DNA of 50,194 nt from a virus, in IMG/VR virus record IMGVR_UViG_3300024327_000008, positions 1 through 50,194 of that record; one strand, given 5' to 3'. A program made the translations under genes and the position numbers. Positions 2,441 to 50,194 of the stretch are shown here, piece after piece. Within the stretch, counting starts at the first letter, position 1; each line of letters opens with the position of its first letter. The notes below the pieces were generated by a model. The model worked only from the letters and a program-made list of their open reading frames with translations, did no database searches and was not told the origin of the DNA.

Positions 2441-3793
2441 TTACCCTTTAAATCTTTTTAATGAGTTGCTCGCTTTGTTTTTATCAATGTGACCTAGTCC
2501 TGCCAAAATCCAATTCCACAACATGACACCTGAACACCCAAAATAATGCTCTAAAGTTAGGGCTGATGGAACAGATGTTTTGCTAATAGACAACATATAT
2601 TTAACTGTTTTTGTCCAAGTATCTCCGCTATTCACATGCCTCCAAAACTCTGTGTCATCTCTACCACCTGTGTAATGTACTACAAGAAAATCTCTAATGT
2701 CATCGTACAACTTTATCATTTCTTTGTTATAGTGATTGATTCTATATTGATTACATGTTTCTTTCTTGGTTTCTTGTAAGTGTTCCATAACAAAAGACAT
2801 TGCTTGGATGATAGTTGTATGTATAGATGTAGCTTCTAAAGGCTCTGCAAATGCGGCTGACAATCCTAAAGCTAGGCAGTTATTTTTCCATAAAACTTCT
2901 GAACGCCCTGAAGTGAACTTGAATTTTCTAAGAATTTCTACGTCACCAAACTTTGCTCTCAATTCCTCTTCAGCTTTAGCATCTGTTATAAACTTAGAGG
3001 AGTAAACATAACCACACCCAAATCTTTCTGTAGTTGGTATTTTCCAACACCACCCTGAATCCATTGCGGTGGCAGTTGTAACAGGCTCATAGTCGTCTGT
3101 AAGTGGCATCTGAAATGCTATTGCGCTATCAACAGGTAAGTTTTTCTCGTAAGACTCCCACTGAATATCCATAGCCCCACACAATACCCTTTTAAACCCA
3201 CTACAGTCTATAAAAAAATCACCTTCATGGGTGTTGTTGTCAGTATCTAATAAACTTATAATTTCACCGTTATCAGTTTTAACCCCATAAATCTCAGCAT
3301 CTATTACTTTAACACCTGCTTTTATAGCATGTTTTGCGAAAAATTCCCCAACTTTAAAAGCATCAAAGTGGTAGCTCACGTTAATAGGCTCTTTTGCTTC
3401 GTATTTCCTACCTATTTCAGATGCTAGATGGAATTTGTCACCATTTACTATTAGGTTCTCACAGAACTCTGTATCAGGGGATAATCCCGAAGTTGATGAG
3501 CCATCTAGTGGAGCAAAGTAAGAAGACCCGTCACCCGTCCAATTAACGTGTTTTATGCCCATCTTTGGTGTTACGTTGCAATATTCTATAAACTCCTTTA
3601 TGTCGATACCTATGTCAAACCATGTGCCCGATACAAAGTCATGCAACATCTGTGTTGCCCCCTCACCCGCACCAACAATGCCTATCTTCTTAGACTCTAT
3701 CAGAGTCACATTATGAGTTGAACCTTGGGTCTTTATAATAGACAAAGCCATTAGCCAACCCGCTGTTCCACCACCAACAATAACTATGTTCAT
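2441..3793 (-). CDS. FAD-dependent tryptophan-halogenase family protein
   Basis: A 450-residue flavin-dependent halogenase of the tryptophan halogenase (PrnA-like) family. These enzymes use FADH2, O2 and halide to make HOX, which is relayed to an active-site lysine and used to halogenate an electron-rich substrate. The sequence shows the FAD-binding GGGTAGW at residues 7-13, IGIVGAGEGAT at 37-47, the lysine motif IKHVNW with K81 (equivalent to PrnA K79), the family signature WCWKIP at 248-253, and EPLEATSI with E320 (equivalent to PrnA E346). No essential residue is missing and the frame is intact. Length is somewhat below the ~500-540 of classical tryptophan halogenases. A characterised cyanophage enzyme of this family, VirX1, prefers iodide. 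Substrate and halide here are unknown. No flavin reductase gene is visible, so the host would have to supply FADH2. The ATG lies just after the stop of a fibre-chaperone-like gene, inside the fibre array. Confidence 0.93.
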   Translation of the reverse strand: MNIVIVGGGTAGWLMALSIIKTQGSTHNVTLIESKKIGIVGAGEGATQMLHDFVSGTWFDIGIDIKEFIEYCNVTPKMGIKHVNWTGDGSSYFAPLDGSSTSGLSPDTEFCENLIVNGDKFHLASEIGRKYEAKEPINVSYHFDAFKVGEFFAKHAIKAGVKVIDAEIYGVKTDNGEIISLLDTDNNTHEGDFFIDCSGFKRVLCGAMDIQWESYEKNLPVDSAIAFQMPLTDDYEPVTTATAMDSGWCWKIPTTERFGCGYVYSSKFITDAKAEEELRAKFGDVEILRKFKFTSGRSEVLWKNNCLALGLSAAFAEPLEATSIHTTIIQAMSFVMEHLQETKKETCNQYRINHYNKEMIKLYDDIRDFLVVHYTGGRDDTEFWRHVNSGDTWTKTVKYMLSISKTSVPSALTLEHYFGCSGVMLWNWILAGLGHIDKNKASNSLKRFKG

Positions 3794-4209: not shown

Positions 4210-6693
4210 TTATCTAACCCAAAGTCTTCCCGGTAGTGTGTTGACAACAGCAGACGTGTTCCACTCTCCATACCCACAAGACCATGTCCGTGGGGCGTTT
4301 CCTGCGCAACCACCGAAACCAAAACCTGAGTCAGAGCCGCCGTTAGAGGCGTTACTCGCCCCAAATGTATAACCCCCTTCGTCCATCGCTGCGCCAACCC
4401 TTGCTCCTGCCCGACCCACTGAACTTAGCGATGCGTTATCGGTGGTGCTGTTGGTAGAGGTATTAGCAAAACAGTTTATACCATATTTCTGAATGTGTCT
4501 CTCATGGCCTGTCTGTAGAGAGAAACTTGAACCTGAGTATATAAAGCCACTATCTATATATTGTATACCTGTATATGTTGGGTTTGTTGAATTGCACCCT
4601 AGCCCACCAAAGGCAGCACTAGAATTGTTTTGCATGGCGTTGTACATGGTTCTACTTGTAGTGTACACCATAATACAAGGCACGGTTCCGTTCATATCTA
4701 ACAAGACTCTGTTAAAGCTGTAGTAGTTCCATGATTTATATTTAGCCCATGAGCCACCTGTTATATTGGAGTCTGTATCGTTATTTGTTGTACTATTAGT
4801 CCAATACGAAGAGCCTGATGGCATATCACCCCTAGCGTGTACTTTTAAAACTAAAATCCAATGACTACTCTCATGCCAATCAAACTTTGTGTAAGCCTGA
4901 TATGTATTAGTTCCGTCTGTGTACCAATACATACCATTACTAGCAGATGAATTGTCTGCCCTAACATCTGCAGGGGTTGATGCAGGAGACCCTGAAGTTG
5001 TTCCCCTAGGTACGATAACAATACTCCACGAATACGCTTGGTCAGCAGTATCACCGTCTGTATCTGTAGCTCTAATAGTGAATGAATATGCTGTTGTACT
5101 TGCTACTTGACCCATAGTTCCTGAAATAACACCTGTTGAGGTATTAAGACTTAAACCTGAAGGTAAAGTACCACTTGCCAAGCTGTAAGCTGAGAAAGTA
5201 GAACCTGCAGTAAATGTAAAGTTTGTATCTACATCGTAAGACGCGGATGAACCTTCATTTACTGCTGAGATTGTTACTGTGCCACCTGTTGTAGTTGCAG
5301 CGACTGTGTTAATTGTTTGTTGGTAATTCTGAGTAGCTGTGCCACCTGAAGTATCAGTAGCTTTAATAGTCCAAGTATAATTAGTGTTACTTGATACATT
5401 TCCAGCGGTGCCTGTCAATGCTGAATTGCCTAGACTAGGTAACACACAGCCTGTAGGCATAGTTCCTAATACTAAGGTGTATGTTAATTGAGCATCAGTA
5501 TCTACATCATCTGTAAAATCAATACCTAGATTATATGAGAACGTACCACCTTCAGATAAAGCACCAATAGTTACTGTGCCACCTGTTGTAGCAGGATTTG
5601 CATTAGATACTAAGTTCCACTGGGTACCATTACTAATATAGAAAATATCATTATCAGACTTATAAAATAAAGAACCTTCAGGAGATACTGGGCTAGGTAG
5701 CGTAGTACCTACTACAACAGCATCAATACCAGTCAAAGCACTACCATCAATTGCAGGTAAAGCACCTGTCAGCATTGAAGCTGGGTGAGTCGCTGGATGT
5801 GTATAGTTGTTAGCACTTGTAGCTATGCCATCTAACTTAGTATTATCAGCAGTAGTAAAATTAACCTGAGTTAACCCACCATCGCCAACTGAATATGTAG
5901 TGTTAGTATCAGTAAACAAAGCTCCAACAGGAACTGCTGTTTCAACTAAAGGATGTGCAACATTAGATACTTTAGCATCATTCAATAGAACTCTAGTGTT
6001 TAATGCCTTACCTTGTGCTGCACTTAACGCCTCTGTTGTACTTGTACTTGTTAAAGTATTATTAACCGTTACTGTTGTGTCATCTAAAAATGCACTCATG
6101 TTAACATCAAATGATGTAGCATCACTTCGTGTAAATGTAGCAACACCGGTTGATCCGTTTAATGAACCAGAAGCAATATAAGCCGCATTGGTATCATCAA
6201 GGTATAAACTTAAATCAATATTAGTTGCCAAGCCATCTTCATCTGTATATGTTAATATGTTAGCAGCAACTGATAATGTTGTGGTAGTATCTGTATCTGT
6301 TGGTATTACCCAAGTGTTATCCCCTCTTAAGAATGTAGAGGTATTTGGTGTACCAGTAGCACTTAGTTGGGTAATACCAACTGTGTCATCACTAGGTATA
6401 CCAATATCTACATTCTGACCTTGGAATACACACCAGAAGGTTGATCCGGTTGCAGGAGCTGATGAGAATACAATGTTTGATCCTGAGACTAAGAAGCCTT
6501 CAGTACCTGTGTCATCAGGTTCTTGTAATACACCGTTAATGCTTACTAATAACTGTCCTGACTTAGCGGGGTTAATAGTTTGTGTTGCCGCTGTTAAAGC
6601 AAATGTTGTTAGTACACCGTTGAAGGAAGCACTTATGTCATCAACGATTTGATAATTACCAATGTTAGCTGGACTGTTTCCTATGTAAGGCAT
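4210..6693 (-). CDS. Large tail fibre with He_PIG repeats and fibrinogen-like tip
   Basis: An 827-residue fibre. The start is the ATG at 6693, which overlaps the preceding TAA and has CAGGAGAAG nine bases upstream; a longer frame from 6723 lacks this. The N-terminus MPYIGNSPAN is a fibre-base motif, also seen in altered form in the 8942-11815 product. A shaft follows, with DTNAAYIASGSLNGSTG, TSTSTTEALSA and NVAHPLVETAVPVGA segments, which are repeated in the 12145-14412 fibre. Two Ig-like repeats of He_PIG type come next (LPSGLSLNTSTGVISGT; IRATDTDGD). The last ~200 residues are Trp- and Gly-rich (FDWHESSHWILVLKV, KSWNYYSFNRVLLDM, GFGFGGCAG, final GRLWVR). They recall fibrinogen-related or intelectin-type lectin domains; that part is a tentative inference. 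Confidence 0.85.
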   Translation of the reverse strand: MPYIGNSPANIGNYQIVDDISASFNGVLTTFALTAATQTINPAKSGQLLVSINGVLQEPDDTGTEGFLVSGSNIVFSSAPATGSTFWCVFQGQNVDIGIPSDDTVGITQLSATGTPNTSTFLRGDNTWVIPTDTDTTTTLSVAANILTYTDEDGLATNIDLSLYLDDTNAAYIASGSLNGSTGVATFTRSDATSFDVNMSAFLDDTTVTVNNTLTSTSTTEALSAAQGKALNTRVLLNDAKVSNVAHPLVETAVPVGALFTDTNTTYSVGDGGLTQVNFTTADNTKLDGIATSANNYTHPATHPASMLTGALPAIDGSALTGIDAVVVGTTLPSPVSPEGSLFYKSDNDIFYISNGTQWNLVSNANPATTGGTVTIGALSEGGTFSYNLGIDFTDDVDTDAQLTYTLVLGTMPTGCVLPSLGNSALTGTAGNVSSNTNYTWTIKATDTSGGTATQNYQQTINTVAATTTGGTVTISAVNEGSSASYDVDTNFTFTAGSTFSAYSLASGTLPSGLSLNTSTGVISGTMGQVASTTAYSFTIRATDTDGDTADQAYSWSIVIVPRGTTSGSPASTPADVRADNSSASNGMYWYTDGTNTYQAYTKFDWHESSHWILVLKVHARGDMPSGSSYWTNSTTNNDTDSNITGGSWAKYKSWNYYSFNRVLLDMNGTVPCIMVYTTSRTMYNAMQNNSSAAFGGLGCNSTNPTYTGIQYIDSGFIYSGSSFSLQTGHERHIQKYGINCFANTSTNSTTDNASLSSVGRAGARVGAAMDEGGYTFGASNASNGGSDSGFGFGGCAGNAPRTWSCGYGEWNTSAVVNTLPGRLWVR

Positions 6694-42537: not shown

Positions 42538-43950
42538 TTACGCGAATGTACCTACAGCTAGTCCACCTGATAAGTTACCTGCACCAGTTCCGCTTCCAGC
42601 AATGATTTGCTTGAAACCGAAGCGCTGTGTAGCAACTAATACACGTGATTGCTTCTCTACGTAGTACTCAGACTGAACGTTGAAACCACGTTGACGAGGC
42701 ATTAGGAAGTTAGCTTTATCAACCATTACTCCCCAAGTAGAGCCCGCAGTAGTAACATTAGGCATCTCTGGAGATACAATTACTGCCATGCCGAACACTG
42801 TACCAACTTGACCGTTAAGTTTAGTAGCGTTATCAGCACCTACTAAGTTAACATCAGCAAACTCAGTATCTTGTAAAAGATCCCAGTAAGTATTCTGAGA
42901 AACAACACAAGCTAAGCCATTAGTGTTTAATCCGTACTTACCTAACTCACGACGTAACTTAAGAATATCAAGAGCCTTCACTTCTGTACCCGCAGCTACA
43001 GTAGTTCCACCTTTAACAGCGATGTTAGTTAAACCCATAAACGGATCACCTGCACCAGTGTCACCAGCTAATAACTGCTCTTCAACTTTACGTGCATGAC
43101 CACGAACTAAAGAATCTTTAAGTAAAGGCATCATAGCGATAATTGAATCTTCATCAAATTCGTCGATCATAAATGTCTTACTTGCCATCTTAGCAGTTGT
43201 TAAGTAGATTTCACTCAATGTAACTGTCTTCTCAGCACCAGTTGTAGCGTCTGTACCATAAGTACCCGTACCAACCCAGTCAGCCTTAGCAGCATCAGGA
43301 GCAATTGGTAAAGTCATTTGAGCCGCGTTTAATTTGATTTCACGGAACAAAGGAGCAACTACTAGATTTTCTTGAACTTCTTTCTCAATGTTATTTGAGA
43401 TAATATGCTCATAATCTGTAGAAGAGATTTGACCTGATTGTGCACCACCGATTAAAGAAGTTGCTGCACCACCGGCTTTAAGCATTATGCCTAAGTCACC
43501 AGCTTTCTCAAGCATTTCACGACCGTGCTCAGTTTCGCCTAGTTGCTTACCAAGTAAAGAAGCAGTTAAAGCTGCAACTTCGAATTGACCGTAGTCTACT
43601 TCGAAACCTTTAGTTCCTGCATGGTCAGAGAATTCCATCTTGTTTGAACGTAAAGCTTCGATTTCAGCTGCTTTTTCAGCGATCTCGTTCTTCATTTCAG
43701 ACATTACAGTCATTGCGTCTTCTTGCTTCTCAGTAATACGTGCTTCTAGTTCTTTAACTAAACGCTCTGCACCTGTTTGGCCCATTTCGATAATAGCAGC
43801 CTTTTGAGCTTCAGCTTCTGCTGCCGCTTTAGTTGCTGCTTCAGCAGTAGCTTTAGCTTTCGCTGCAGTCTCTGCTTGTTTCATAGCGATATCAGCTGCA
43901 GTTTTCTTTGCTACTTCTGCCATCATTTCTTTGATTTGATTTTCATCCAT
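42538..43950 (-). CDS. Possible internal start: scaffold plus capsid without protease
   Basis: Inside the fused gene the ATG at 43950 (residue M196, MDENQIKEMMAEVA) is preceded by CAGGAAAATAAAACA, a reasonable ribosome site. Starting here gives a 470-residue delta-domain plus capsid protein, the form used by HK97-like phages with separate protease genes. It would explain how a capsid needing hundreds of subunits avoids an equal number of proteases. This is a prediction from sequence only. Confidence 0.5.
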   Translation of the reverse strand: MDENQIKEMMAEVAKKTAADIAMKQAETAAKAKATAEAATKAAAEAEAQKAAIIEMGQTGAERLVKELEARITEKQEDAMTVMSEMKNEIAEKAAEIEALRSNKMEFSDHAGTKGFEVDYGQFEVAALTASLLGKQLGETEHGREMLEKAGDLGIMLKAGGAATSLIGGAQSGQISSTDYEHIISNNIEKEVQENLVVAPLFREIKLNAAQMTLPIAPDAAKADWVGTGTYGTDATTGAEKTVTLSEIYLTTAKMASKTFMIDEFDEDSIIAMMPLLKDSLVRGHARKVEEQLLAGDTGAGDPFMGLTNIAVKGGTTVAAGTEVKALDILKLRRELGKYGLNTNGLACVVSQNTYWDLLQDTEFADVNLVGADNATKLNGQVGTVFGMAVIVSPEMPNVTTAGSTWGVMVDKANFLMPRQRGFNVQSEYYVEKQSRVLVATQRFGFKQIIAGSGTGAGNLSGGLAVGTFA

Positions 43951-44535
43951 TGTTTTATTTTCCTGTTCTAAATGAGCACCTATGGTGTCATCCTTAGCAC
44001 CAGTCATTGGTGCATCATTTTTTACATATTGAGATTTGAAAGCCTCAAACTCTTCGTTAGACCCATCAAAACCTTTAGCCAACGAAAAGAGGCTATCAGC
44101 GTTTGCTGGTATTGATACTACAGATACTTCGTGCAACTCTAAGTCTTTAATAACGAAAATATCTGTATCAGCGTCATAATCAGCGTCTTTAACTCTAAAG
44201 CCGACTGAGAATGCTTTGAGTATACCTTCTTTTACAAGATCGTATACTACTCCGGCAGATTTACTGATCTCTGCCACAATCTCTAAACCCTTATCTGTAA
44301 CACTATAATCGACCATCTGACCTATTGGTTGTGCTCTATCATGGTATGCCAGGATAATTGGGTTTTTGAGATAATTAGTTAATGCGGACTCTGTTCTCCA
44401 AGCCTCTTTTACGATAACATCACCAACTCTATCTTTGCTGGTAGTGTTTGCATATCCACGTACTGTAATAGTACCGTCTTCTGCCTCCGATTTTGAAGAT
44501 ATTAAAGAGTCTAAATGAAAAGACTTATTTAGCAT
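42538..44535 (-). CDS. Fused prohead protease, scaffold and major capsid protein
   Basis: A 665-residue polyprotein. The start is the ATG at 44535, because GGAGGT lies eight bases upstream. A longer frame to 44679 only reads a DNA repeat of the preceding gene in another phase. Residues 1-150 are an S78/HK97 prohead protease with H65 (AYHDRAQPIG), S110 (KAFSVGF) and E136 (LHEVSVVSIPAN). Residues ~196-320 are an Ala/Lys/Glu coiled coil like the HK97 delta (scaffold) domain. The rest is an HK97-fold capsid protein (MASKTFMIDEFDED, LRRELGKYGLN, FGMAVIVSPEMPN, QRFGFKQII). The protease would cut the scaffold away during maturation. Confidence 0.9.
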   Translation of the reverse strand: MLNKSFHLDSLISSKSEAEDGTITVRGYANTTSKDRVGDVIVKEAWRTESALTNYLKNPIILAYHDRAQPIGQMVDYSVTDKGLEIVAEISKSAGVVYDLVKEGILKAFSVGFRVKDADYDADTDIFVIKDLELHEVSVVSIPANADSLFSLAKGFDGSNEEFEAFKSQYVKNDAPMTGAKDDTIGAHLEQENKTMDENQIKEMMAEVAKKTAADIAMKQAETAAKAKATAEAATKAAAEAEAQKAAIIEMGQTGAERLVKELEARITEKQEDAMTVMSEMKNEIAEKAAEIEALRSNKMEFSDHAGTKGFEVDYGQFEVAALTASLLGKQLGETEHGREMLEKAGDLGIMLKAGGAATSLIGGAQSGQISSTDYEHIISNNIEKEVQENLVVAPLFREIKLNAAQMTLPIAPDAAKADWVGTGTYGTDATTGAEKTVTLSEIYLTTAKMASKTFMIDEFDEDSIIAMMPLLKDSLVRGHARKVEEQLLAGDTGAGDPFMGLTNIAVKGGTTVAAGTEVKALDILKLRRELGKYGLNTNGLACVVSQNTYWDLLQDTEFADVNLVGADNATKLNGQVGTVFGMAVIVSPEMPNVTTAGSTWGVMVDKANFLMPRQRGFNVQSEYYVEKQSRVLVATQRFGFKQIIAGSGTGAGNLSGGLAVGTFA

Positions 44536-44806
44536 CTTTAACCTCCGCTTTTGGAGCCGCTTTTGGAGCCGCTTTTGGAGCCGCTTTTGGAGCCGCTTTT
44601 GGAGCCGCTTTTGGAGCCGCTTTTGGAGCTGCTGCAAATTGCTTTGCAATAAATCTTTGGAATCTAATATAAGACCCATAAGCTCTATTAATTACTGCGT
44701 AAGGGACAGGAACTTCTGCATCACTACGATACTCGCCTCTGTCCAATACTTTACCTAGCTTTTGAAAGTAACTTAGTACTTTTGATTCTAGTTCTGTTTT
44801 TGTCAT
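44525..44806 (-). CDS. Small protein with AAPK-repeat tail
   Basis: A 93-residue protein between portal and protease genes. Residues 1-58 form a compact part (ELESKVLSYFQKLGKVLDRGEYRS, VPVPYAVINRAYGSYIRFQRFIAK). The rest is seven near-perfect AAPK repeats followed by AEVKDAK, similar in style to the basic tails of histone H1-like proteins. The tail could bind nucleic acid or act as a flexible arm. Its stop lies 11 bases inside the protease gene, whose ribosome site is within this gene. I know no firm function. Confidence 0.7.
   Translation of the reverse strand: MTKTELESKVLSYFQKLGKVLDRGEYRSDAEVPVPYAVINRAYGSYIRFQRFIAKQFAAAPKAAPKAAPKAAPKAAPKAAPKAAPKAEVKDAK
44547..44630 (-). repeat. 12-base tandem repeat, seven copies
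   Basis: The unit gcttttggagcc (plus strand) occurs seven times head to tail, the last copy with one change. It codes for AAPK in the 44525-44806 gene. Because the unit is four codons, copy-number change would lengthen or shorten the tail without a frameshift. The identity of the copies points to recent slippage. Confidence 0.95.
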
Positions 44807-47780: not shown

Positions 47781-48215
47781 TTATCTCTTCATTGCGGCTG
47801 ACCCAAAGTAAAAGCCTATAATATTCATAATAGCTACAGGTAGCCACTCTGGGGTTACAAACCCCTGTAAAGTAATGTACTCAGTTACAGTATGTGTAGT
47901 ATCTATAAATAGGAACTTAACCCCCTCTGTAATCTCAATAGGTACATTGGTTTGAATCCCCAGAATAGGGGCCAGGAATACAATTCCGATCCCTGCCATT
48001 AAACTCATAATAACTATGAAGCGCCTAATCCAGGCTGCATTAGGGTTCTGCATCTGACGTGCATTATTAACGCCCTTCTCTACTTGTAGATTAGACTGCA
48101 TTAACATTTTATGTTGCTCAGCTTTATCAGCCTGCGCCTGCCCCCACATCTTCATTAGTCCACCCATTGCGGTGGACCCTAACATACTTATTGCTTCAAT
48201 TGGTAATCCAAACAT
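47781..48215 (-). CDS. Holin-like membrane protein (GTA-type 3TM holin?)
   Basis: A 144-residue protein. The N-terminal MFGLPIEAISMLGSTAMGGL is amphipathic. An acidic/Gln-rich helix (WGQAQADKAEQHKMLMQ) follows, then a membrane segment after RRFIV (about residues 64-88), a further hydrophobic stretch (VKFLFIDTTHTVTEYI) and a final membrane helix (WLPVAIMNIIGFYFGS) ending AAMKR. The layout resembles the gene-transfer-agent-type holins with up to three membrane segments found in marine phages. Lysis function is inferred; no endolysin is visible nearby. Confidence 0.65.
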   Translation of the reverse strand: MFGLPIEAISMLGSTAMGGLMKMWGQAQADKAEQHKMLMQSNLQVEKGVNNARQMQNPNAAWIRRFIVIMSLMAGIGIVFLAPILGIQTNVPIEITEGVKFLFIDTTHTVTEYITLQGFVTPEWLPVAIMNIIGFYFGSAAMKR

Positions 48216-48225
48216 ATATTCTCTC

Positions 48226-48531
48226 CTATTTCTTGCAATTGCAAGTAGTTTTCTTAGGTGTATCTAGCAGCTTATCAGCTACTTTGTACACTACTGCTTT
48301 TAGTCCAAAGATCACTAGTACTAGTATGCCTACGATAGTAGTGTACCATTCTGGTGCTTTGCCTAAGTTTTCCCACGCCTGAGCAAGAGTTACCTCGCTA
48401 AAGATAGGGGCTAGAAAGTTCATGACAATAGGGAAAGAGAATACAATTACTATTGCTTCATCCTTCCAACTATTGTCCATGCTTTCTTCTGCAATTTGAT
48501 GATCTAGTTTCTTTTCTTCTTCCATATTCAT
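48226..48531 (-). CDS. Small two-helix membrane protein, holin-like
   Basis: A 101-residue protein with a charged start (MNMEEEKKLDHQ), two predicted membrane helices (AIVIVFSFPIVMNFLAPIF and WYTTIVGILVLVIFGLKAVV) joined by an AQAWENLGKAPE loop, and a Lys/Cys-rich end (KKTTCNCKK). Size, helices and basic tail fit class II holins or holin partners. AAGGAGTAAG precedes the ATG. It pairs with the 47781-48215 protein ten bases downstream. Confidence 0.65.
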   Translation of the reverse strand: MNMEEEKKLDHQIAEESMDNSWKDEAIVIVFSFPIVMNFLAPIFSEVTLAQAWENLGKAPEWYTTIVGILVLVIFGLKAVVYKVADKLLDTPKKTTCNCKK

Positions 48532-48548: not shown

Positions 48549-48635
48549 CTAACAACAATACATAAATGGGGCCCAATCACAGGTCGCCATGAGTAATTCA
48601 CCATTTATATATGGCAAAAGTGCTACCCCTTCCAT
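48549..48635 (-). CDS. Possible 28-residue ORF
   Basis: Within the 105-base gap between 48531 and 48637, an ATG one base after the upstream stop (TAATATG) opens a 28-codon frame. It contains LLPYINGELLMATCDWAPF and ends YCC. It fills the gap almost exactly, stopping just before the ribosome site of the next gene. There is no clear Shine-Dalgarno; coupling to the upstream gene would be required. Hydrophobic residues and three Cys would suit a small membrane or lysis peptide. It may also be chance. Confidence 0.35.
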   Translation of the reverse strand: MEGVALLPYINGELLMATCDWAPFMYCC

Positions 48636-48636
48636 A

Positions 48637-49140
48637 TTAATTTGCAAGAGGATTGTCTAATGCTCGTTGTACCTTAGCATTTAACCTATCCTCCAACTCT
48701 TTTATGTCTGTTTTATTAGATGCCCTTAATTGGTCACGTTTAGTTTCAAATCGTACTTCAGCATCATCAATCATATCTCGTACTTTATCCTCTAAAGCAT
48801 TAACATCATCTTCTGTTCTATCCGATACCTTTTCAATTCTACTAATATCATCACGTAATCCGTTTTTGATATCTCTTGTATAATCCAATGTACTTTCAAT
48901 CTTAGCATCCATCAAATCCATTTGAGTTTGATAAGCACCAACATCTAAGTTAGCAATACCTTCAATCTTCTGATACATAGTGAATCCACCATACAACGTA
49001 CCCATCACTGTAGATAATACAGCGAATGCCATACCTAATTGTGTAGGGGTCAGTTTATAACCAAGGATACTAAATTCACCGTTGGCGAACTTATCCTTAA
49101 TTGCATCAATTTTATTTAAGTCTTTGCTTAGGTCTGACAT
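48637..49140 (-). CDS. Membrane-anchored coiled-coil protein
   Basis: A 167-residue protein. A charged helix (DLSKDLNKIDAIKDKFANG) leads to a single membrane segment at about residues 32-52 (TQLGMAFAVLSTVMGTLYGG). About 100 residues of charged coiled coil follow (DDISRIEKVSDRTEDDVNALE, FETKRDQLRASNKTDIKELE). The topology, short inside and long coiled coil outside, is like an inner-membrane spanin, but no lipoprotein partner with a lipobox is visible. The next gene upstream encodes a secreted protein that also ends in a coiled coil. The function is unknown. Confidence 0.72.
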   Translation of the reverse strand: MSDLSKDLNKIDAIKDKFANGEFSILGYKLTPTQLGMAFAVLSTVMGTLYGGFTMYQKIEGIANLDVGAYQTQMDLMDAKIESTLDYTRDIKNGLRDDISRIEKVSDRTEDDVNALEDKVRDMIDDAEVRFETKRDQLRASNKTDIKELEDRLNAKVQRALDNPLAN

Positions 49141-49141
49141 A

Positions 49142-49540
49142 TTAATTCTCGAATTGTAATCTTCTAAGTTTCTTCAACTCTTGTTCTAACTTCACCACTT
49201 CTAATCGTTTCTTTCTAAGTTCCAATTGGTATAACGTGTTACAGTTTATACGTTCCTTTGGAGCATTCAATGGTATTACTATCCTTGCATATAAACCCAA
49301 ATCCTTTGTTGTAGGATTATCTGGATCATCAGAACTAAATGGTGTTTGAGCATTATTAACAATACCTGTTATACCAAACTCCATATTCATTGTACCACCA
49401 ATAGCATTAGAACAATCTAAATTACCTGCTCTAAACTTATCAGATGCATAGCTATTTGTCATAGAGGGTAACTGTAAAGACAATGCATTATTAGCATTCA
49501 CATTTAAACTTAACATCATTAATATAAAGAAGTATCTCAT
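49142..49540 (-). CDS. Secreted protein with C-terminal coiled coil
   Basis: A 132-residue protein with a signal peptide (MRYFFILMMLSLNVNA, likely cut after NVNA). The mature part is beta-rich (NALSLQLPSMTNSY, GGTMNMEFGITGIV, GLYARIVIPL) and has two Cys (LDCSN; INCNT) that could form a disulfide. The end is a basic amphipathic helix (YQLELRKKRLEVVKLEQELK). There is no lipobox Cys. Its ATG overlaps the stop of the chaperone-like gene as ATGA. It is probably periplasmic or exposed in the envelope; the function is unknown. Confidence 0.72.
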   Translation of the reverse strand: MRYFFILMMLSLNVNANNALSLQLPSMTNSYASDKFRAGNLDCSNAIGGTMNMEFGITGIVNNAQTPFSSDDPDNPTTKDLGLYARIVIPLNAPKERINCNTLYQLELRKKRLEVVKLEQELKKLRRLQFEN

Positions 49541-49938
49541 TTTATCTTAGAACAAATCCTAGATGCTATACCTGTTGATATAACATCACTCTTAATTAGT
49601 TTAGACTTAGAACAAATATATGTTGAATTACTCAAGTCTTTAGTATTAATGTATAAATCAAATGACACCGTTTCAAGATAATCCATTTTCATTATCTTAT
49701 ACGTTGTTACGAAGGGTACTGGTTCCCATTCAGAATCAAATACCCCTATTTCGTAATATGAAACATCACTTCGTCTATTGAATAATCTCATCTTAGTTTT
49801 TTGAATACCTGAAATAAATGAGGATTCAAATTTAGGATAAGTTGGAGTCATCTCATGTGCTTTCGCGTCAACTGTCAATACTAGCCCTGCAATGAAAAAT
49901 GCAACGCATATTAATATTGTGACTCCACTATTATTCAT
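49537..49938 (-). CDS. Secreted pilus-chaperone-like protein
   Basis: A 133-residue protein. I place the start at ATG 49938, one base after the upstream stop; a TTG at 49962 would add eight residues in overlap and is less likely. A signal sequence is clear (VTILICVAFFIAGLVLTVDAKA). The mature part has TKMRLFNRRSDVSYYEIGVFD, WEPVPF, and SFDLYINTKDLSNSTYIC. This recalls the N-terminal Ig domain of periplasmic pilus chaperones (PapD type), but lacks a second domain, so the link is weak. Two C-terminal Cys (YICSKSK; SRICSKIK) could pair. Confidence 0.7.
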   Translation of the reverse strand: MNNSGVTILICVAFFIAGLVLTVDAKAHEMTPTYPKFESSFISGIQKTKMRLFNRRSDVSYYEIGVFDSEWEPVPFVTTYKIMKMDYLETVSFDLYINTKDLSNSTYICSKSKLIKSDVISTGIASRICSKIK

Positions 49939-49939
49939 A

Positions 49940-50194
49940 TTACTTAGCGATACACTCAGCAACTAATACAGCACTGTATACACCACCTGGGAATGCTTTG
50001 TCATACCCGTTTGTGGCTGATAGAGTGGCAGAGAACCAAGTTGAGCCAGCAACCGTTAGGTCGTATTCAGTAGTAGCATCATATGTTACCTTTGCCGCTT
50101 CATAACCAGACATACCAGCATCAGAAGTTTGTGCTACCGCAGTTGAACCAGTCCAAGTAACTGTATCAATTAAAGCAGGTGAAGATGAGAAACT
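49940..50194 (-). CDS. Secreted-type beta-rich protein, C-terminal part
   Basis: The last 84 codons of a gene that starts beyond base 50194; the stop is TAA at 49942-49940. The visible part is strand-rich: PALIDTVTWTGSTAV, YEAAKVTYDATTEYDLTVAG, STWFSATLSATNGYDKAFPGG, and a final VYSAVLVAECIAK. The G-x-Y-x-x-x-x-V ending resembles the donor or last strand of pilin-like and spore-coat-U-like subunits. It is followed with one-base spacing by a chaperone-like gene, an order also seen for subunit and chaperone pairs. The N-terminus is not seen, so secretion is an inference. Confidence 0.6.
   Translation of the reverse strand, partial: SFSSSPALIDTVTWTGSTAVAQTSDAGMSGYEAAKVTYDATTEYDLTVAGSTWFSATLSATNGYDKAFPGGVYSAVLVAECIAK

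Follow-up and report, generated by a model that had tools for sequence, protein, structure and literature searches.

Chaperone-usher fimbriae, whether of the CFA/I class 5 or of the Saf/Caf1/Dra FGL type, combine pilin subunits of incomplete Ig-like fold with a two-domain PapD-like periplasmic chaperone and an outer-membrane usher. Two kinds of phage-encoded envelope protein also bear comparison with the locus described here, namely the spanins (Rz/Rz1) and T5 Llp with similar superinfection-exclusion proteins. In T5-like phages, llp lies in the terS/terL/oad neighbourhood.

The locus ends a 50,194-bp IMG/VR virus record, the whole of which was analysed and is called the window below. Late genes of the window are on the minus strand, its TerL is ~50% identical to those of T5-like Vibrio and Serratia phages, and its tail region includes a lambda-J-like protein. 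The minus-strand order is A (partial), B, C, D, a tiny ORF, E, F and TerL, and the spacing of the window ORFs from A to F is operon-like. All of the ORFs that a first-pass annotation had listed were present:

49940..50194, minus strand: A, exported protein of predicted pilin fold, C-terminal 84 of ~164 aa, the gene running off the window (fold from the model of the complete protein of L007)
49537..49938, minus strand: B, ATG at 49938, predicted single-domain PapD-like exported chaperone of 133 aa (model and PDB matches)
49142..49540, minus strand: C, small exported protein, two cysteines conserved, helix at the C-terminus (homology to bacterial C)
48637..49140, minus strand: D, predicted membrane-anchored helical-stalk protein with a conserved C-terminal LDNPL motif
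48549..48635, minus strand: 28-aa microprotein, MEGVALLPYINGELLMATCDWAPFMYCC (conserved in relatives L011, L021 and L094, with third-position bias)
48226..48531, minus strand: E, holin-like two-TM protein (phrog_2524, E 5e-18, a PHROG without function; holin slot in relatives)
47781..48215, minus strand: F, holin-like membrane protein (phrog_38283, E 3e-9, a PHROG without function; holin slot in relatives)

Elsewhere in the window, a single 713-aa ORF (42538-44679) encodes a head-maturation protease fused to the major capsid protein, and its start overlaps a 12-bp tandem repeat of 7.4 copies (44545-44633); this repeat also codes for the tail of APKA repeats in an overlapping ORF of 93 aa (44525-44806). 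A tryptophan-halogenase-like gene (2441-3793; phrog_2928, E 4e-104) lies among the tail-fibre genes.

The 5' part of A was supplied by a sister contig, L007, which is 99.97% identical to the window across 7,050 bp and carries the complete gene at 5107-5601. Upstream of A, L007 has two additional exported genes, G (189 aa, with a signal and a C-terminal hydrophobic segment) and H (295 aa), themselves preceded by genes for PhoH, a collagen-like fibre and TerS. The window's four genes proved to be the 3' portion of a cassette of six, G-H-A-B-C-D, whose order is fixed in more than 100 marine viral loci. Scans of viral contigs gave 331 confirmed stretches with C as the query and 536 with D. Among 159 loci, located with C and D and never with A, B, G or H as queries, profile searches found the adjacent pairs G-H in 118, H-A in 119, A-B in 135, B-C in 138 and C-D in 139; since there is overlap between some loci and contig ends truncate many, these figures count loci, not independent phages. 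Co-occurrence of the genes is far above chance. The genes are thus conserved together in related phages, on which the first-pass annotation had let its proposal stand or fall, and the undescribed envelope module that it proposed, with pilin-like and chaperone-like proteins beside holin-like genes, holds. In some phages, Pelagibacter phage HTVC115P and long contigs among them, G, H and D also occur without A-B-C (L005, L132, L133, L141, L146, L149, L150, L152), so the cassette consists of two parts; D is duplicated in L147, L149 and L150.

Signal peptides and lipoboxes were called by simple rules. Signal-peptide-like N-termini were found in 60/65 sequences of A, 62/74 of B, 57/67 of C, 50/56 of G and 51/74 of H, and in 0/62 cytoplasmic control sequences; since the rule also fires on the single hydrophobic segment of D, it cannot separate an anchor from a signal. 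Upstream of G in some relatives is an exported M48-protease-like protein (L013 3221-3745; match below cut-off).

Structures were predicted for the full L007 A protein (pLDDT 90.8, alignment of 64 sequences) and for B (pLDDT 90.8, alignment of 73 sequences). The best PDB matches of A in Foldseek were CfaB, PapG pilin domain, CS17 and FimF, from E 2.6e-3 for CfaB, the first, to 1.2e-2, with FimG and CsuA/B lower in the list. These E-values are moderate, the TM scores are 0.4-0.5 and unrelated beta-sandwiches are interspersed, so A resembles a pilin subunit of incomplete Ig-like fold at the level of fold only. B matched the N-domains of SafB, DraB, Caf1M, PapD, FaeE and FimC, from E 6e-5; the matches span one domain, as against the two of PapD-like periplasmic chaperones, and MSP-type domains are among the remaining matches. 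Against BFVD, B had no match with a named function; one match was a 116-aa protein of phage Eowyn, and 116 aa is also the length of the gene product encoded immediately before Eowyn's C. Chiefly because independent searches with A and B led to the two partners of a single known pair, the models make it very probable that A has a pilin fold and B a chaperone fold, and the initial descriptions of A as pilin-like and of B as recalling one domain of a pilus chaperone agree with the predicted structures.

Details of the two models bear on this assignment. The N-terminal extension of A has no assigned strands, and its alternating conserved I22-G24-V26, ahead of the first strand, is suggestive of a donor strand in the model. 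The conserved cysteines of A lie at the start of the first strand and in the last strand, a placement that differs from the usual disulfide of classical pilins. In B, the invariant C108 and C128 are on the last two model strands (106-112 and 126-130), the place of the F1-G1 disulfide in FGL chaperones. Such a disulfide is present in FGL chaperones and absent from FGS and class 5 chaperones (PMC4133393). PDB sequence searches with profiles of phage A, B, C, G and H and of bacterial A and B returned nothing meaningful, and gave A and B no link to known pilins or chaperones at the level of sequence.

C, with a core of 100-140 aa, occupies the usher's place in the operon. It had been described as a secreted protein with a C-terminal coiled coil; the export signal stood, while helical periodicity of the short C-terminal tail was not significant (p=0.69), so the coiled coil is a matter of sequence pattern only. 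D, described as a membrane-anchored coiled coil, has a stalk of significant helical periodicity (p=0.003) behind its N-terminal hydrophobic segment. The tiny hydrophobic ORF is genuine, with 28 aa as the better reading of its length: three diverged relatives have kept the protein, with base changes mostly at third codon positions, and on these grounds its dismissal as noise was rejected. In relatives, the order TM protein, then 3TM holin or E or F, then endolysin recurs, and the exchange of E and F with a curated 3TM holin ahead of endolysins supports the earlier label "holin-like" for both. Between D and the holin, many marine contigs carry an EF-hand-like TM protein (L047 3942-4307) or a staphylococcal-nuclease-like protein (L084 8634-9143).

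The A-B-C trio extends beyond the marine cassette. Among Vibrio phage records, A was found in 179, B in 179 and C in 181, the carriers comprising T5-like Ceto, an 82-kb group and Queuovirinae. In the cases read, two fibre-like genes precede A-B-C and a short lipoprotein gene follows. This lipoprotein is conserved (L004 8239-8442, L198 8854-9030, L199 8125-8280), and in L198 a 224-aa ORF stands between it and A-B-C. In Ceto a holin and an M15 endolysin adjoin the trio, and in the Vibrio Queuovirinae the trio is inside the head-tail module. Two Klebsiella phages, Eowyn and Miami, and one Erwinia phage have the genes in the order B-like, C, A-like, in regions that are accessory or rich in tRNAs and lie apart from the lysis and virion genes; here C was recognised at E 1e-8 to 1e-12 with phage and bacterial profiles (one value 5e-8), and assignment of the B-like and A-like genes relied on position, signal peptide and cysteines, together with the Eowyn match in the fold search. 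In a tree of C, with an arbitrary root and a short alignment, marine phages, Vibrio phages, enterobacterial phages and Alphaproteobacteria formed separate groups on long stems, so no recent exchange is evident.

In Alphaproteobacteria the trio is a stand-alone operon, found on chromosomes and on a Mesorhizobium plasmid. A and B precede C in all 26 bacterial loci examined, in the order A-B-C or A-B-C-A-A, and most members of the Rhizobiaceae-family set have one or two further A paralogues after C. Profile-profile comparison with hhalign (A 4.5e-14, B 6e-11, C 3.5e-20) confirmed, from sequence profiles, that all three phage families are homologous to their bacterial counterparts. Alphaproteobacterial carriers, among them some Rhizobiaceae and Hyphomonadaceae, are sparse: 24/200 species in one family, 10/137 in another and, class-wide, 2/385 genomes with the query genome included. 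We rejected the idea that the bacterial copies are prophages, since the longer loci have ordinary chromosomal neighbours (by eye, trpB/trpA, carB, DAHP synthase and Tad genes) and showed no G, H, D or terminase gene; L160-L165, filed under bacterial bins yet carrying the marine phage cassette, were left out of the bacterial set. A Vibrio nigripulchritudo conjugative plasmid (L203 7270-10051) has a fimbria-like operon encoding a pilin, a 264-aa protein of which one end is pilin-like, B, C and an EAL-domain protein.

Usher genes, which the first-pass annotation had suggested looking for, were sought in these relatives. With a PF00577 search that detected the E. coli usher as positive control, no outer-membrane usher was found in any of 22 cassette-bearing viral records, of which Ceto is complete and many of the others are fragments. 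Among 37 trio-bearing bacterial genomes, PF00577 was likewise missing from 35, and in the other two it was on another contig.

We therefore weighed several functions for the module. Tentatively, and at somewhat below an even chance, we read A-B-C as an usher-less chaperone-pilin module that makes a short surface or periplasmic polymer, its most likely use in phages being to coat the infected cell. For this reading count the independent matches of A and B to both halves of the chaperone-usher pair, the donor-strand-like extension of A, the placement of the B cysteines, the fixed marine order, the Vibrio phage records, the bacterial operons, the Vibrio plasmid operon, the enterobacterial phage sets remote from lysis genes and the lack of an usher; against it count the moderate E-values of A, the missing sequence link, the placement of the A cysteines and the adjoining lysis genes. 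A would be a pilin that polymerises by donor-strand exchange, and B, judging from its fold and operon pairing, a one-domain PapD-like chaperone holding A in the periplasm; that the two act as a pair is likely. C, from the position of its gene, may be a small exported stand-in for the usher, serving as platform or anchor. That the module makes a polymer at all seems somewhat probable. The phage-only additions, namely the exported G and H and the inner-membrane stalk D, could tether the structure, either anchoring it or linking it to lysis. As it lies among the late genes, the module would give the infected cell a short fibre or coat, placed on its outer membrane or beneath it, and a surface location of its product is presumed here. 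The most likely purpose of such a coat would be to block phage adsorption, either as superinfection exclusion or by preventing progeny from re-binding to the dying cell or its debris; granted the rest, adsorption control has about an even chance of being the purpose. Of the roles suggested in the first-pass annotation, envelope remodelling against superinfection is the one that we favour. A more far-reaching version, in which C is a miniature outer-membrane translocation platform and A-B-C a separate usher-less fibre-secretion pathway with which phages coat infected cells, is doubtful.

The neighbourhood of the marine cassette raises the question of lysis. Once holin and endolysin have acted, the exported proteins and the D stalk might take the place of spanins by disrupting the outer membrane or fusing it. 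Recognised lysis genes (GTA-type 3TM holin, GH19, GH108, SleB-like, lysozyme-like) occur within seven genes downstream of D in 35/112 loci, or 70/112 when E and F are counted, and the cassette directly adjoins lysis genes in many marine contigs, as the trio does in Ceto. D has an i-spanin-like predicted topology, and by the simple rule, applied over a few kb, a credible lipoprotein was found near the endolysin in only 1/39 relatives. In the window itself, no endolysin was found among ~29 ORFs scanned against PHROGs and none of A, B, C and D has a lipobox, in line with the earlier remark that neither an endolysin nor a lipobox spanin is visible. While these neighbours favour a lysis role for the marine cassette, the trio also stands alone in bacterial chromosomes, in operons without phage genes, and is found inside the head-tail module in Queuovirinae and within accessory regions in enterobacterial phages. 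In many phages lysis genes follow fibre genes anyway, and we know of no spanin with pilin or chaperone folds. The spanin-like function once suggested is thus unlikely, though lysis is the foremost of the alternatives, and the occurrence of the core without lysis genes in bacteria and other phages leads us to place its function in the making of a fibre or coat.

Such a fibre could instead belong to the virion, with A, assisted by B as an assembly factor, forming or modifying particle fibres or whiskers and joining at or after lysis. Fibre-like genes adjoin A-B-C in Vibrio phages, collagen-like or other fibre-like genes lie upstream in marine phages, and the Queuovirinae position is within the head-tail module. 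However, A, B and C bear export signals whereas tailed phages assemble in the cytoplasm, and the core is found in bacteria without phage genes, which makes a virion appendage quite improbable. Pilin and truncated chaperone folds without an usher would also suit a decoy, A and B mimicking host pilus parts so as to block chaperone-usher or other pilus assembly and thereby remove a receptor. This is very improbable, considering that bacterial operons with several A paralogues resemble a working system rather than an inhibitor, that most trio-bearing genomes have no usher to block and that the host spread is very wide.

In the sources searched the module is undescribed. No Pfam model matched phage A, B, C, D, G or H or bacterial A, B or C above the curated cut-off, no NCBIfam model matched above cut-off any of the proteins searched there, and the papers searched on usher-less fimbriae, on pilins of phages and on the virion proteomics of related Vibrio phages yielded neither a description of these genes nor an experiment on them; a proteomics paper on Alteromonas R7M (PMC8265664) does not settle the question. 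If true, the chaperone-pilin reading would give a testable function to exported genes in hundreds of marine phage contigs and ~180 Vibrio phage records, and to genes of some Rhizobiaceae, Hyphomonadaceae and Vibrio plasmids, all currently annotated as hypothetical. It would also allow a test of what a donor-strand polymer at the outer membrane minimally needs, as the pilin system would then work with half a chaperone and without an usher.

Compared with known systems, the module shares with T5 Llp and similar superinfection-exclusion proteins its small exported products and its occurrence in T5-like phages in a terS/terL/oad neighbourhood. This likeness is one of gene neighbourhood; the module has no lipoprotein here and is a multi-gene pilin system, whereas Llp is a single receptor blocker. 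Like the spanins, the cassette lies near holin and endolysin genes in many relatives, and D combines a predicted inner-membrane anchor with a helical stalk; unlike them, it has no lipobox partner in the window, comprises six genes, includes predicted pilin and chaperone folds and has a core present in bacteria. From chaperone-usher fimbriae it differs in having no usher, with the 100-140-aa C in the usher's place, in the one domain (~110 residues) of B where two are usual, and in showing no detectable sequence similarity. It resembles these fimbriae in the predicted pilin fold of A, the PapD-like N-domain of B, the export signals and the pilin-chaperone operon order, and, in bacteria, in the extra pilin paralogues downstream.
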